Notes under the pieces: generated by a model | Database searches by the model: none | What the model saw: the letters and a program-made list of their open reading frames with translations, nothing else | Told to the model about the DNA's origin: nothing | Shown here: positions 43,306 through 50,018 of the stretch, piece by piece | How the letters are laid out: each line of letters begins with the position of its first letter | Position numbering within the stretch: the first letter of the stretch is position 1 | Translations under genes and position numbers: made by a program | Origin: Candidatus Manganitrophus noduliformans | GTDB taxonomy: Bacteria; Nitrospirota; Nitrospiria; SBBL01; Manganitrophaceae | Assembly (NCBI RefSeq): GCF_012184425.1 | Contig: NZ_VTOW01000001.1 | Coordinates: 248,001-312,000, forward strand | Length of the DNA stretch: 64,000 bases | Reading direction: 5' to 3'

Positions 43306-43386
43306 TCCGCCCTCCTTGTGAAGAGGTCAGGCAGGTCTCCCCCCCTTTCGGTCGCCTCGGATTCGCTTCAATGTAAGGAGCCCCGT

Positions 43387-46300
43387 TTGTCAAAAAAGTG
43401 GATCCTCTTTATTTTTGCCGCCCTTTTCCTTTTGTTGCTTGCCGTTCAGCTTGTCCTCCAAAGCGGTCTCTTCTCGGAGAAGGCAAAGGAATATGCCGAA
43501 AAGGGGTTGGAGCGGTTGCTGGGACGGCCGATCCAAATCGGGGAGGTCGAACTTCGCTCTCTCTCCGCCTCGGTGGTGCTGAAGGGGGTCTCCGCCCGAC
43601 CGACTGGCGATGTCTCCCCCTTTTCGGCCCAAGAGATTCGGGTTTATTTCAGTCCTTGGTCTCTGCTGACCCAATCTTTTTTTATCCGGCAGATCGTGAT
43701 CGAGTCTCCCGCGATCATGCTGACACCCGCATTCCTCCCTCAGACTCCCCCCCCCTCGCCGGAGCAACGGGAGGGGAGCCCTCCGGCGGTCGTCGTTCGG
43801 ACCGTTCGAATCAAGAACGGATCGCTTTCTTATCAGGGAGCCGGCCTGCTCCGCTCCCTTTCGCTCCAGGAGATCGAGGCGGAGATCCGGCCCGATCTGG
43901 GAATGACCCGATTCGAGATCGACCTCGCGGCGGCAAAGGGACGGATTTCAACCGAGAAGGAGGAGAGAACGATCGACCGGTTGGAGACGAAAGTCGCCTT
44001 GATTCCCGGAGAAGTCGAGATCCGGCAGGGCTCGCTTACCTCCGGACGAGCGCACCTCTTGACGGAAGGGAAGGTCCACACGGGAGAAGACAACCGGCTC
44101 GACCTGCAGATCGACCTCCGTTTTCCCCTGGAGGAGGCGCCCGTTGCTCTCATCACCGAAAGAAAACTCTCCGGCGAGGCGATCGTGCAGGGGCAACTCA
44201 CCGGCGCCTATCCCAACCTTGCCGCCGCAGGAAAGATCACCCTGCCGCAGCTTTCCTCGGAAGGGGCCGAGATCGGCTCTCTCCTCTCGGAAATCTCCTA
44301 CCGGGATCGAAAGGTCGTGGTCTCTTCCTTCTCCGGCGAGCTCTTCAAAGGGACCTTCAGCGGGGAGGCGGAGGGCGATTTCATGGAGGAGACGCCGACC
44401 TACCGCGCCTCGCTTCAATACGGACGTCTTCCTTTGGAGAAGACGCGAAAGCTCCTTTCGAATCTCCCGTCGGAAATGGACCGGGCGCTGGAAGGAATTT
44501 TTCTCGACGGCGATTTCTCCATTTCCGGAAAAGGGGCGGCCCCGGCCGATTGGGCGGGAGGAGGCCGTCTGGAAGCAAAACGGCTTCCCCTCTTTTCCCC
44601 TCCGTTTCGCGCCGACGCGGGACGCACCCAGAAGTTGATCGCCCTGCTTCAAGGGGGAGTCCTCCAATGGAGATGGTCGGAGAGCCGGCTGTCGATCGAC
44701 CAGGGAAGGCTCGCTTTCCCGAATGCAGAAGCGACTTTTCACGGAAATTGGAGCCGACAGCAAGGCCTCTCCATCGAAGCGGCCGCCCTCTCCGAGGAGG
44801 TCCGGGGATTGACCCGGGCGCTCGACTTTCCCTTCACCGGAGCGCTGCAGGTTGAAGGAACCCTCTCCGGAGAGATCGATCATCCCCGCGTCGAAGGGCA
44901 CGCTCTGCTCGACCGATGGACCTTCCAGGGCAAAGCGATGGGAACCCTTTCCTCCCAATTCCTTCTCCAGGACCGGCGCCTCTTATTAAAGGAGGGGTCT
45001 CTGGAATCTCCCCCCACCGGGAAGAAATCCGCATCGGCGCCCTATCGTTTCGACGGGAGCATTCAGTGGGCCCACCCTGAAGCGCCGATGTTCGACCTTC
45101 AAGCCAAGATCGCCTCCGCCGATCCCCAGGCGGTCTTCGACTTCTTCAAACTCTCCATTCCGCTTCGGACCGCGGCGACCGGAACGCTGACCATCAAAGG
45201 ATCGCCCCGGGCCTTCGCGGTCAAGGGGCCGCTGCGCTTGACGCGGGGCTCTCTCTACGGTGAGCGTTTCGACCGGGGAAGAGTCGATCTGACGGTCACG
45301 AACGAAGAGGTCCAGCTTCGCAAGGTCTCCCTGGAGCGGGGGACGGTTCGCATCGCGGGAGAAGGAGAGATCCGGTTCAACGGGACCTATCGGATCGCGG
45401 CGAAAGGGGCGCATCTCCCCATTCACGAGATCGAGATAATCCAGCTCCGGGCGCCGCTTCTCTCCGGAAAGATGGGGTTGGAGGTGACGGGCGAGGGAAG
45501 TTTTAAGAAACCGAACCTGTTGATCGTCGCTTCCGTCCAGGATCTTCGATATGCCGACACGGAGGGGGATTCCGGAACGGTCAAAGTCGACTGGAGCCAG
45601 GGGGCCGTCCGCCTGGAGGGAGCTTTTCCCAAGAAAAACTTTTCCGCGAAGGGAGAGATCCAGCTGACCCCTTCGTACCCCTTTTCTTTCCAGGGCCGCT
45701 TTGCGCAGCTTCGGATCGATCCTTTCATCCGACAGTTTTTCTCGACCCCTCTCGCCGGGATCACCCTTCAGATGACGGGGGAGTTGGAAGGAGGCGGACA
45801 GCTCACCAAGATGGACCAGGTCAATCTGACCGGATCGCTGACGGAGATTGCGGCCGACTTCGGCGGATACGCCGTCGGGAACGACGGCCCGATCGCCGTC
45901 CGATCGGAGGGAGGGGCCTTTGCCTTCGAGAACGCCCGATTGAAGGGAGAGAACACCGCCTTAGAGTTCAACGGAGGGTTGATCCCCCTCCAATCATGGG
46001 ATCTGTTCGTAAAGGGAGAGGCCGATCTGAATCTTCTCACTTTTTTTTCAAGGACGATTACTTCCGGAAAAGGGAAGGCGACCCTCGACGTGCGGATCTC
46101 CGATCAGTGGAAATCACCCCGTATTCTCGGCCAACTCGCCCTTCAAGACGGCACGGTGCGAACGGTCATCTTCCCCCAGTCGGTTCATGTCTCCTCTCTC
46201 TCGGTCGTCTTCAACGAACGGGTCCTTCTCCTGGAAACGTTCGAGGGGGAGATGGGACGGGGACGGTTCCAGGCAAACGGGAAGGCCGATCTGGCCGGTT

Positions 46301-47298
46301 TCGGCGTCGGCCCGTTCGGGTTTCTTCTGGAGGTCGCCGACACGCGAATCAACCTTGCGAGAGACCTGACGGCGACGGTCGACGGCGAGCTCCTCTTCCA
46401 GCGGGAGGGATCGGCTCAGACCCTCAAAGGAGAGCTGATCGTGAAGCGGGCGATCTACGACAAGCGGGTCGATCTCAAATCGGTGGCGGTCGAGTGGGCG
46501 CAGAAAACGGAGGAGACCTTCAGCAAAGAGACTCCTTTCATCGGCGCGACGAAAATGAACATCCACCTCTCCGGAGAGGAGAATCTCTGGATCGACAACA
46601 ACCTCGCGAAAATCCCGCTTGAAGCCGATCTCTTTCTGAAGGGGACGCTCGACCGGCCGCTCCTGATCGGCCGGATCGTGGTCCCGCGCGGTTTGATCTA
46701 TTTCCGGAATAATGAATTCGAGGTGACCTCCGGCTCGGTCGAATTCCTCGACCCCCAGAAGATCAACCCGCGATTTAATTTGAAAGCCAAAACGGTGGTG
46801 GAAACAAGGAACAGCAAAGAGAGCCTCGATAAGGATTACGAAATCGATCTCGGTCTCACCGGAACCCTCTCCCAGTTCACGCTGGCGCTCTCTTCCTCTC
46901 CCCCGCTCCCGGAGACCGATATTCTCGCCCTTCTCACCTTCGGGGTGACGACGGAGGAGTTCGCCCAGAGGCAAGGAGGGGTGGCCAGCAGCGAGGCGAC
47001 CAGCCTGATTCTGGCGGAGTTCTTAGAGGGAACGGTTCCGAAAACAGGGTTTGTCGATCGGATCCAGGTCGATCCTTTTGCCGGGGGATCGAAGTCGTCG
47101 AGCGGCCCTCGACTCACGGCTGAAAAACGGCTCCTGGAAGACCGGCTCCTGGTGACATATGAGGCCAACCTCGATCCTTCCCAAGAACAGCTGATCCGAA
47201 TGATTTACGAGCTTGGCAAAAATGTGTCTCTGGTGGGAGAACGAGATCAAGACGGGCAGATGGGAGGGGATGTTCGATTCAGATTCGAGTTCCGATAA
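43387..47298 (+). CDS. tamB: TamB-like translocation and assembly module protein
   Basis: The 1303-residue protein has an N-terminal signal anchor (WILFIFAALFLLLLAVQLVL) and a long series of beta-rich repeats typical of AsmA-like bridge proteins. It ends in the TamB C-terminal domain (VPRGLIYFRNNEFEVTSGSVEF, LPETDILALLTFG, YELGKNVSLVGERDQDG). Such proteins form a periplasmic groove carrying lipids or barrel proteins to the outer membrane. The TTG start at 43387 has AAGGAG 6 nt upstream; the open frame from 43318 lacks support. The Omp85 gene begins inside its last 22 bp, a classical TamA-TamB pairing in reversed order. Confidence 0.92.
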   Translation: MSKKWILFIFAALFLLLLAVQLVLQSGLFSEKAKEYAEKGLERLLGRPIQIGEVELRSLSASVVLKGVSARPTGDVSPFSAQEIRVYFSPWSLLTQSFFIRQIVIESPAIMLTPAFLPQTPPPSPEQREGSPPAVVVRTVRIKNGSLSYQGAGLLRSLSLQEIEAEIRPDLGMTRFEIDLAAAKGRISTEKEERTIDRLETKVALIPGEVEIRQGSLTSGRAHLLTEGKVHTGEDNRLDLQIDLRFPLEEAPVALITERKLSGEAIVQGQLTGAYPNLAAAGKITLPQLSSEGAEIGSLLSEISYRDRKVVVSSFSGELFKGTFSGEAEGDFMEETPTYRASLQYGRLPLEKTRKLLSNLPSEMDRALEGIFLDGDFSISGKGAAPADWAGGGRLEAKRLPLFSPPFRADAGRTQKLIALLQGGVLQWRWSESRLSIDQGRLAFPNAEATFHGNWSRQQGLSIEAAALSEEVRGLTRALDFPFTGALQVEGTLSGEIDHPRVEGHALLDRWTFQGKAMGTLSSQFLLQDRRLLLKEGSLESPPTGKKSASAPYRFDGSIQWAHPEAPMFDLQAKIASADPQAVFDFFKLSIPLRTAATGTLTIKGSPRAFAVKGPLRLTRGSLYGERFDRGRVDLTVTNEEVQLRKVSLERGTVRIAGEGEIRFNGTYRIAAKGAHLPIHEIEIIQLRAPLLSGKMGLEVTGEGSFKKPNLLIVASVQDLRYADTEGDSGTVKVDWSQGAVRLEGAFPKKNFSAKGEIQLTPSYPFSFQGRFAQLRIDPFIRQFFSTPLAGITLQMTGELEGGGQLTKMDQVNLTGSLTEIAADFGGYAVGNDGPIAVRSEGGAFAFENARLKGENTALEFNGGLIPLQSWDLFVKGEADLNLLTFFSRTITSGKGKATLDVRISDQWKSPRILGQLALQDGTVRTVIFPQSVHVSSLSVVFNERVLLLETFEGEMGRGRFQANGKADLAGFGVGPFGFLLEVADTRINLARDLTATVDGELLFQREGSAQTLKGELIVKRAIYDKRVDLKSVAVEWAQKTEETFSKETPFIGATKMNIHLSGEENLWIDNNLAKIPLEADLFLKGTLDRPLLIGRIVVPRGLIYFRNNEFEVTSGSVEFLDPQKINPRFNLKAKTVVETRNSKESLDKDYEIDLGLTGTLSQFTLALSSSPPLPETDILALLTFGVTTEEFAQRQGGVASSEATSLILAEFLEGTVPKTGFVDRIQVDPFAGGSKSSSGPRLTAEKRLLEDRLLVTYEANLDPSQEQLIRMIYELGKNVSLVGERDQDGQMGGDVRFRFEFR

Positions 47299-50018
47299 TC
47301 GCGACAATCTGTCTTCTCATCGCCCCTCTTTTTGCTCATGCCCATTCTTGGGAAGGGAAGGTCATTCACCAGGTCGGCATCGATTTATCCGAGCGCTCTT
47401 CCGAGCCGGAGGTCTTCGAACAGATCGAACTGCGACCGGGGCAGCGCTACCAGACCCGCCTCATTCGGCAAGCCATCGAACGCCTCTACGCAACCGGCCG
47501 CTACCGCGACATCTGGGTGGAGGTCGAACCGGCGGGAGAGGAGGTCACCGTCAAATTCGTCCTCATCGAGCGGCGGCTTCTCTCCTCGATCGACCTCTCC
47601 GGAAATTACTTCGTTTCCGAGGAGGAGATTCTCGGTGCGATCGGGATGAAGCCGGGGGACGAGTTTACGGAGGCCCGCTGGGAAAAAGCGCTCTCCGACG
47701 TAAGCTCGCTCTATCGAAGAAAGGGATACTTTCAAACCCGCTTCTCGACCGACTTGAAACGGCCCCCCGGCGACCGGAGAGGCGTCGATCTCTCCCTGAA
47801 GATTCGTGAAGGGGATCCGGCCAAAATCAGAAACCTCCGTTTAACCGGACAGAAAGTATTTTCAGACACGACGATCAAGCTTCGGATGATGACCTCCTGG
47901 CCGAAGGAGTATTATCGCTTCGACAAACTTGAAGAAAATATAAGAGCGGTCGAAGCGTTCTATTACAGCGAGGGCTACTTGAAGGCCGTCGTCGGTCCGC
48001 CGATCCTCGATTTTATCGAGCGGACCAATGAGGTCGACATCACCCTTCCGATCGCCGCCTCCAACAAGATCGACCTTCACTTCGACGGGCGGGGTCCCAT
48101 GTCGGTGAAACAACTGGAGCCGCTGGTCCTCATCAAAGAAGAGGGGAGCGACGATTCGAGCACGCTCGAGCAGAGCGCCCAGGAGATTGAAGAATTCTAC
48201 CGCAGAGCGGGTTATCCCTTCGTCCAGGTGACCGTCTCCGCCCTTCCCTTTCCGGAGGAAAACCGGACGGAGGTTCGCTTCAAGATCGAAAGCGGTTCCC
48301 GAACCCGCATTCGACAGATCAAATTCTCCGGCAACCACTCCTTTTCATCGGAGCGCCTGCGGGAGATCGTCCGCCTCCAAAAAGAGGGTCGCTTCTCGTC
48401 GAGTCTTTACACCCGCGAGCAGCTCGACGAGGATGCCTCCGCCCTGGTTCTCTTTTATAAGAGGGAGGGGTTCCGAAACCCGCGCGTCGCCCCCGAGATC
48501 GATTATGACGACACCCGAACCGACGCCACGGTCACTTACAAAATAGACGAGGGAATTCGAACCAGGATCGGCCGGATCACTCTTCAGGGGAACCAACGCC
48601 TGCCGGAAACGACACTGAAAGAGGCGCTCCGGATCGCGCCGGAAGATCCTTATTATGAAGCGATCGTGAGGGAGGGGGCGCGCCAGCTCCTCTCCGCCTA
48701 TGAAAAGGAGGGCTATCTTTACGCCGCCGTTCAGTCGCTCACCGATTTCTCCGAGGATCAGACGACCGCCGACATCACCTATGATCTCTCCGAGGGAGAG
48801 CAGGTCCGCGTCGGCCGAATCGTTCTCGATGGAAACCTGAAAACACGCGACCACGTTCTCCTCCGTGAGCTCGTCATTCGCGAGGGAGATCCTTATAGCT
48901 TCGATCAGATCCTCACGAGCCAGCAGCGCCTCTATCGGACCGGCCTCTTCTCGGGGGTCCGGTTCGAGCCGATTCGCTTTGAAGACAAACCGACGGTTCA
49001 TGACCTCCAACTCTCGGTGACGGAGCGCCCCAGCATCGGCGTGGAGTTCGGCTTCGGTTATGCCGACTTCGAAGGGGTCCGCGGATTTTTCGAGCTCTCC
49101 CATCGGAACCTCTTCGGAACCGGCCGGAGCCTCAGCGCCCGGGCGCAGGGAAGCCGCGTTCAGGAGCTCTATACCCTGAGCTACCGGGAGCCGTGGTTCT
49201 TCTTCCGCGACACCGACGCCCATGTGGTGGCGGCCTACGAAGATCGGGAAGAGCGCACCTACGATTTGGAAAGAGCCAGCGGCACCGTCGGCGTCGACAA
49301 AAGTTTCTCGAAAACCGTCAAGGGATCGCTCGTCTATCAATACGAACGGAACCGGCTCTCGAATGTCGACCCGGACGCGCAATTGACACAAGAAGATATC
49401 GGGCGGGTCACGATCGGGAGCATCACCCCCTCGTTGATCCGAGACACGCGGGACGACCCTTTCAATCCCCGCTCCGGAAGCTTGAACGGAATCACCGTCC
49501 AGGACGCCGCGCAAATCTTCGGCTCCGAGGCGCAGTTCGTCAAAACAACGGTTCAGAGCAGCTGGTATCAGGCCCTCTCCGAAAAGCTCGTCTTCGCCTT
49601 CTCGGCGCGGGCCGGCGTGGCGCAGCGATTCGGCGAGACCGAGGTGATTCCCCTCACGGAACGGTTTCTCGCGGGAGGGCGCAGCACGGTCCGCGGCTAC
49701 GGTCAAGACAAGCTCGGGGTGGAGAGGGTCACCATCATCAACGGAGATCCCATCGGCGGAAACGCCATGTTGATCTTCAACGAGGAGCTTCGGATCGCCC
49801 TTCCCCGGTCGTTCGGCCTCGTTCTCTTTTTCGATCATGGGAACGTCTGGCTGGACCACCGGGACGTCCGCTTCTCCGACATCAAATCCACCACCGGGAT
49901 CGGGGTACGGTATAATACTCCTGTGGGGCCGTTCCGGCTCGACTGGGGATACAAGCTCAACCGCGAGGCCGACGAAGATCCCTGGACGGTCCATTTCACC
50001 CTCGGACACGCTTTCTAG
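47277..50018 (+). CDS. Omp85 family outer-membrane assembly protein (BamA/TamA-like), likely ATT start
   Basis: The reading of 913 residues has a signal peptide (IRVPIIATICLLIAPLFAHA), several POTRA domains with repeated YxxxGY, VxIxEG and GN patterns, and a C-terminal barrel. The barrel includes the Omp85 loop motif RGYGQDK and ends HFTLGHAF. It inserts or assembles outer-membrane proteins. The frame has no ATG, GTG or TTG before codon 81, which would remove the signal peptide and the first POTRA. GGGAGGGG (47262-47269) lies 7 nt before ATT at 47277, which starts IQIRVPI. The start overlaps the tamB end by 22 bp. Confidence 0.9.
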   Translation: MQIRVPIIATICLLIAPLFAHAHSWEGKVIHQVGIDLSERSSEPEVFEQIELRPGQRYQTRLIRQAIERLYATGRYRDIWVEVEPAGEEVTVKFVLIERRLLSSIDLSGNYFVSEEEILGAIGMKPGDEFTEARWEKALSDVSSLYRRKGYFQTRFSTDLKRPPGDRRGVDLSLKIREGDPAKIRNLRLTGQKVFSDTTIKLRMMTSWPKEYYRFDKLEENIRAVEAFYYSEGYLKAVVGPPILDFIERTNEVDITLPIAASNKIDLHFDGRGPMSVKQLEPLVLIKEEGSDDSSTLEQSAQEIEEFYRRAGYPFVQVTVSALPFPEENRTEVRFKIESGSRTRIRQIKFSGNHSFSSERLREIVRLQKEGRFSSSLYTREQLDEDASALVLFYKREGFRNPRVAPEIDYDDTRTDATVTYKIDEGIRTRIGRITLQGNQRLPETTLKEALRIAPEDPYYEAIVREGARQLLSAYEKEGYLYAAVQSLTDFSEDQTTADITYDLSEGEQVRVGRIVLDGNLKTRDHVLLRELVIREGDPYSFDQILTSQQRLYRTGLFSGVRFEPIRFEDKPTVHDLQLSVTERPSIGVEFGFGYADFEGVRGFFELSHRNLFGTGRSLSARAQGSRVQELYTLSYREPWFFFRDTDAHVVAAYEDREERTYDLERASGTVGVDKSFSKTVKGSLVYQYERNRLSNVDPDAQLTQEDIGRVTIGSITPSLIRDTRDDPFNPRSGSLNGITVQDAAQIFGSEAQFVKTTVQSSWYQALSEKLVFAFSARAGVAQRFGETEVIPLTERFLAGGRSTVRGYGQDKLGVERVTIINGDPIGGNAMLIFNEELRIALPRSFGLVLFFDHGNVWLDHRDVRFSDIKSTTGIGVRYNTPVGPFRLDWGYKLNREADEDPWTVHFTLGHAF

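Follow-up and report, generated by a model that had tools for sequence, protein, structure and literature searches.

A conserved AUU codon at the end of tamB as the probable start of a tamB-linked Omp85 gene in Nitrospirota

Initiation factor 3 (IF3) discriminates against the start codon of infC, which is AUU in Escherichia coli and ATC in Streptomyces (PMC5472188); in Staphylococcus aureus the infC start is AUA (PMC13009471). Like infC, the Omp85 gene analyzed here appears to have an AUU-type start behind a strong Shine-Dalgarno (SD) sequence, but it encodes an outer-membrane assembly protein and its start lies within another coding sequence. A second AUU gene of E. coli, pcnB, is cited in PMC13009471. 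For S. aureus, AUU and AUA reporters (cvfC1 with AUU, ccpN with AUA) gave about 10% of the AUG output, and ccpN in rich medium reached as much as 30% (PMC13009471). Conserved near-cognate starts with an extended SD sequence are common to pcnB, cvfC1, ccpN and the Omp85 gene. For the former three, experiments have proven the start, and no embedding in an upstream gene is described, whereas the Omp85 start is inferred from the sequence.

In Borrelia burgdorferi the AUU start of pncA (BBE22) had been missed, and the N-terminus was long misannotated (PMC13398362). This is a single, proven plasmid gene, while the likewise sequence-inferred ATT of the Omp85 gene is conserved across an order. Streptomyces sigR has a conserved near-cognate GTC start with AGGAGGTG, and IF3 represses sigR (PMC5472188); both genes share a conserved near-cognate start, but sigR uses GTC and encodes a sigma factor. 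In gene layout, tamB and the Omp85 gene resemble ATGA overlapping pairs, since they lie on the same strand, overlap, and have the SD sequence inside the upstream gene. They differ in that the start is not ATG and lies 19 nt before the stop, giving an overlap of 22 nt instead of the 4 or 1 nt of ATGA or TGATG pairs. AUU starts are already known from infC, pcnB, Borrelia pncA and Staphylococcus cvfC1, and it is well supported by comparison of relatives that the Omp85 gene would add a further case.

The tamB-Omp85 junction

The window, i.e. the whole stretch of 64,000 nt that was analyzed (G000:C1:248001-312000), comes from a Manganitrophus genome (Nitrospirota), the nearest named relative being the chromosome of Candidatus Manganitrophus GAC4 (L033). 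The tamB gene extends from 43318 to 47298 (+) with 1326 codons from GTG and a TAA stop at 47296-47298 (Pfam TamB PF04357, E=7e-55). Omp85 occupies the -1 frame with respect to that of tamB, and this frame runs uninterrupted from 47163 to a stop at 50018. Read from an ATT codon at 47277-47279 (+), it encodes a protein of 913 aa (47277-50018, +) with a signal peptide, POTRA domains (Pfam POTRA in 6 stretches) and an Omp85 barrel (Pfam Omp85). With this start, the gene overlaps the tamB end by 22 nt, in a different frame; an overlap had been proposed in the original prediction.

The Omp85 protein scored 560 bits against the BamA-type NCBIfam model TIGR03303, above the cut-off of 297, and only 180 bits against the NCBIfam TamA model, whose cut-off is 625. 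A second BamA (667 bits) is encoded on contig C2 within a bamA-ompH-lpxD-fabZ-lpxA cluster; the tamB-linked protein is thus neither the only BamA of the genome nor part of that cluster, and its gene is most aptly described as a BamA paralogue linked to tamB. The translocation and assembly module (TAM) has been proposed to come from BamA plus TamB with a later BamA duplication, and it was non-essential where tested (PMC4494059). Because of this and of the standard BamA located elsewhere, the earlier description of the Omp85 gene as essential is unsupported.

No ATG, GTG or TTG was present in the Omp85 frame upstream of a GTG at 47517-47519 (+) in the in-frame codon list from 47163. This first conventional start cuts through the first POTRA domain (about 47388-47564, +; Pfam POTRA E=5e-5 on a fragment) and was rejected; none of the conventional start codons gives the full N-terminus. 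Between 47346 and 47514, dN/dS was 0.09-0.18 in most genus pairs, resembling the remainder of the gene, which indicates that codons ahead of GTG 47517 are translated and under constraint. When 1113 genes (1.65 Mb) were scanned for codon usage, the Omp85 gene ranked first for coding signal ahead of the first canonical start, with 15.8 nats compared with 5.8 for the fourth-ranked gene. As the frame stands, the Omp85 N-terminus is readable only from a near-cognate codon. Across most of the order, gene callers limited to ATG, GTG and TTG cut this protein short by its signal peptide and some of its first POTRA domain.

The last tamB codons also contain the putative ribosome site and start of the Omp85 gene. 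The SD sequence GGGAGGGG occupies 47262-47269 (+), and ATT 47277 begins 7 nt past it and 9 nt past the end of GGAGG. Translation from this codon would produce (M)QIRVPIIATICLLIAPLFAHA|HSWEGK, i.e. a signal peptide encoded at 47277-47342 (+) that is plausible as judged by eye and contains an arginine, Arg-4, that is invariant in an alignment of relatives (A1). The original prediction had placed the start at this codon because the frame holds no conventional start further upstream, because both signal peptide and first POTRA domain need one, and because ATT follows the ribosome site at a suitable distance and opens a normal signal peptide; all of this was borne out.

Conservation of ATT 47277 and of silent bases in tamB

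A homologue of the Omp85 gene was found in 18 of 18 genomes of the order. The tamB overlap is kept in 13 of them, from families f1, f2 and f5 (L005, L006, L011, L012, L030, L007, L042, L041, L043, L044, L045, L048 and L049; some of those genomes are represented a second time by the genome_contigs loci L031-L035 and L038), and all 13 have ATT at the position of 47277, retained down to about 45% protein identity. These relatives are separate assemblies, but kin and not independent samples. A usable canonical start is absent in 11 of the 13. L045 has TTG and L049 CTG over the tamB stop, and in these two a start other than ATT is possible. In L042, L044 and L048, whatever canonical codons occur near the N-terminus fall within the hydrophobic core of the signal peptide or past it. 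L041 and L042 carry TGA in frame two codons upstream of ATT, which implies that translation starts at ATT or later, with no longer N-terminus.

The exceptions within the order use ATG. In L047 it lies 12 nt past the stop in a different frame, with ATT still present at its place; in L051 it overlaps the tamB stop (TAATG); in L046 and L052 (family f3) the gene begins at ATG and is not preceded by a tamB match. Each of tamB, queA and the tamB-linked Omp85 gene is interrupted by frameshifts in the GAC4 chromosome (G005; L011/L010, L127/L121); that assembly alone shows these frameshifts, which are probably sequencing errors.

Among 12 class outgroups that make no use of it, 9 also have ATT at this place, because tamB encodes Arg/Lys-Phe there. 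Plain conservation of ATT is therefore weak evidence, and silent bases of tamB were used instead. The last ~340 tamB codons of 12 relatives contained 100 columns with nearly invariant amino acids, and the third base was invariant in just two of these, codon -7 and codon -4. The former base is the A of ATT 47277 and is kept even in L007, where the tamB residue has changed from Arg to Gln; the latter is the C that creates Arg-4 of the Omp85 signal peptide. The chance that both named columns are invariant is 0.0002 if columns are exchangeable, with the Arg-4 column recognised after the test. The third base varies at codon -5, which underlies a second ATT at 47283, and likewise behind the -1 codon. 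In alignment A1 (12 sequences), I1 and R4 are the sole invariant residues among the first 16 of the Omp85 protein, and Arg-4 calls for a start no later than 47283. The TGA of L041 and L042 calls for a start downstream of it, and within these limits ATT 47277 is the one codon that all sequences compared have retained. In this rare case of a probable near-cognate start, conservation can be gauged with a second coding frame as reference.

A standard anti-SD sequence was assumed for the ribosome site, as no 16S 3' end was found in G000; the single match to it in G003 (L094) was rejected as coding sequence. Under this assumption the predicted duplex for 47277 ranged from -8.6 to -17.1 kcal/mol across all relatives. 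The window's value of -12.3 kcal/mol was equalled or bettered in 2.8% of 433 ATG genes of the genome. The spacing between GGAGG and ATG in this genome is usually 4-8 nt; 9 nt, as at 47277, is seen but less common. The wobble base of tamB codon -11 was a purine in 12 of 12 ATT-using relatives compared with 7 of 14 others. A hairpin burying the SD sequence is strongly predicted in the window; it was inconsistent or unseen in most relatives, and a conserved hairpin of this kind was rejected.

An in-frame AUU at SD spacing is thus kept in the relatives, and the codon comparison, with ATT in all 13 genomes sharing the arrangement, strongly supports the AUU start that had been predicted. Contrary evidence named at the outset, namely ATG or GTG at this position in relatives or an indel, was looked for and did not occur. 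We estimate a probability of roughly 0.86 that translation of the Omp85 gene initiates at AUU 47277.

Alternative readings and probable origin of the start

The GTG at 47517 is the first conventional start and would be the choice of an automatic gene caller. Initiation there, or a gene that is a decaying remnant, can be practically dismissed, as the protein would lack the signal peptide and have its first POTRA domain split, the upstream stretch is under purifying selection in a frame that is intact in nearly all relatives, and the position of the first canonical start differs among relatives. An ATG at 47270, out of frame, could suggest that a proper ATG is hidden by a sequencing or assembly error. 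This ATG is missing from most relatives, the bases are identical in independent assemblies (L006, L011/L033) and ATT occurs in all relatives, leaving such an error a negligible chance; sequencing error was ruled out on the agreement of single-contig assemblies of relatives with many independent MAGs. Because a run of at least 7 G occurs near the tamB end in some relatives, with Omp85 in the -1 frame, a -1 frameshift yielding a TamB-Omp85 fusion was considered as well. The in-frame TGA past the G-run in L041 and L042 excludes a -1 shift at the run, no slippery heptamer is found downstream, the signal peptide would fall within the fusion, and the genes of L046, L047, L051 and L052 are separate, with ATG. 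A fusion is accordingly most improbable.

Two nearby codons are less remote as starts. The second ATT, at 47283, is present in most relatives too and is directly followed by Arg, but it is replaced by CTT, TTT or GTT in L045, L048 and L049 and lies 15 nt from GGAGG, beyond nearly all spacings in the genome, which makes its use very unlikely. The least unlikely competitor, though still improbable, is the ATA over the tamB stop (ATAA; 47295-47297, +), at which ribosomes terminating on tamB could reinitiate. Reinitiation is frequent in overlapping pairs (PMC6728339). Class outgroups L065, L069 and L071 have ATG at exactly this site, over the tamB stop (ATGA), and queA of the same genome displays a parallel ATGA to ATAA change, with an SD-like GAGGA before ATA. 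Against this, the codon is CTA or TTA, with two mismatches to AUG, in L030, L042, L043, L041, L044 and L048; no SD sequence precedes it (about -0.5 to -2.9 kcal/mol in relatives, standard anti-SD assumed); the signal peptide would be ~16 residues without Arg, and the invariant base of Arg-4 would be unexplained. ATA 47295 is probably a relic and not a start.

For the AUU at 47277, an origin from an ATGA overlap can be suggested. Within the order, the site of the outgroup ATGA reads ATAA, CTAA, TTAA, TTGA or CTGA, the codon over the tamB stop being ATA, CTA or TTA in most relatives. An earlier ATG on the tamB stop was probably lost to ATA, CTA or TTA, and initiation would have shifted 18 nt upstream to an existing AUU, supplied beforehand by the Arg/Lys-Phe codons of tamB and adjoining a purine-rich, SD-like GGR-GGN stretch already in that gene. 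The ATGA to ATAA change thus probably displaced the start upstream. In the present arrangement, the 30S subunit would bind GGGAGGGG within tamB and initiate with fMet-tRNA at AUU 47277, leading to a normal signal peptide. Low output of the Omp85 gene, coupled to tamB and sensitive to IF3, would be the expected outcome and is plausible by analogy with the known cases.

Other near-cognate starts in the lineage

In the scan of 1113 genes, rsmG (CTG) and queA (ATA/ATC) came next after the Omp85 gene. The rsmG gene (L095, G000:C1:421375-422025, +; relatives L096-L100) has no canonical start for its N-terminus; its CTG overlaps the TGA of the previous gene (CTGA) behind GGAGAG and is kept in 6 of 6 Manganitrophus genomes. 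For queA (L110, G000:C1:222030-223094, -; relatives L111-L114, L116, L122, L127 and L129), the apparent ATA/ATC start lies over the TAA of a spoIID-like gene. L129 has ATG at this site. In L122 the ATC is apparently obligatory, as it immediately follows a TAA and is the first codon of the open frame; AAGGAG lies upstream. In addition, infC (L059, G000:C1 about 1497480-1496940, -) has an ATC start behind AAGGAGG and no ATG, GTG or TTG among its first 25 or so codons, which indicates that near-cognate starts work in this organism. Together, infC, rsmG and queA point to the use of near-cognate starts in the lineage and so support the reading of ATT as a start.

Taken with the Omp85 gene, these genes are candidate targets of IF3 in a lineage of manganese oxidisers. 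It is a tentative and rather doubtful extension that in Manganitrophus ATG starts over upstream stops gave way more than once to near-cognate codons, leaving a small group of IF3-sensitive genes (the tamB-Omp85 ATT, queA ATA/ATC and rsmG CTG, besides infC ATC), in which the dual-coded ATT and Arg-4 would tie outer-membrane assembly output to IF3 and tamB translation. A control of 400 kb from the same class (G051, 241 genes) contained no comparably large outlier, though its size does not allow rates to be compared.

Some minor observations were made in these scans. Another CTGA overlap is located at G000:C1:917627 (-), with coding signal from the CTG and the first canonical start 78 nt further on. 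In G051 (L193-L212), no canonical start is apparent near the N-terminus of an apt-like gene, which has an Ile codon where Met is expected. UGA reassignment was rejected, TGA being a common stop. No special initiator tRNA was seen in the 1.65 Mb, which contained two CAT tRNAs of the usual type. The initiator-like tRNA-Met (G000:C1, scan offset 1386041-1386117, -) starts with T, where that of E. coli has C, and its position 1 could pair with A72.
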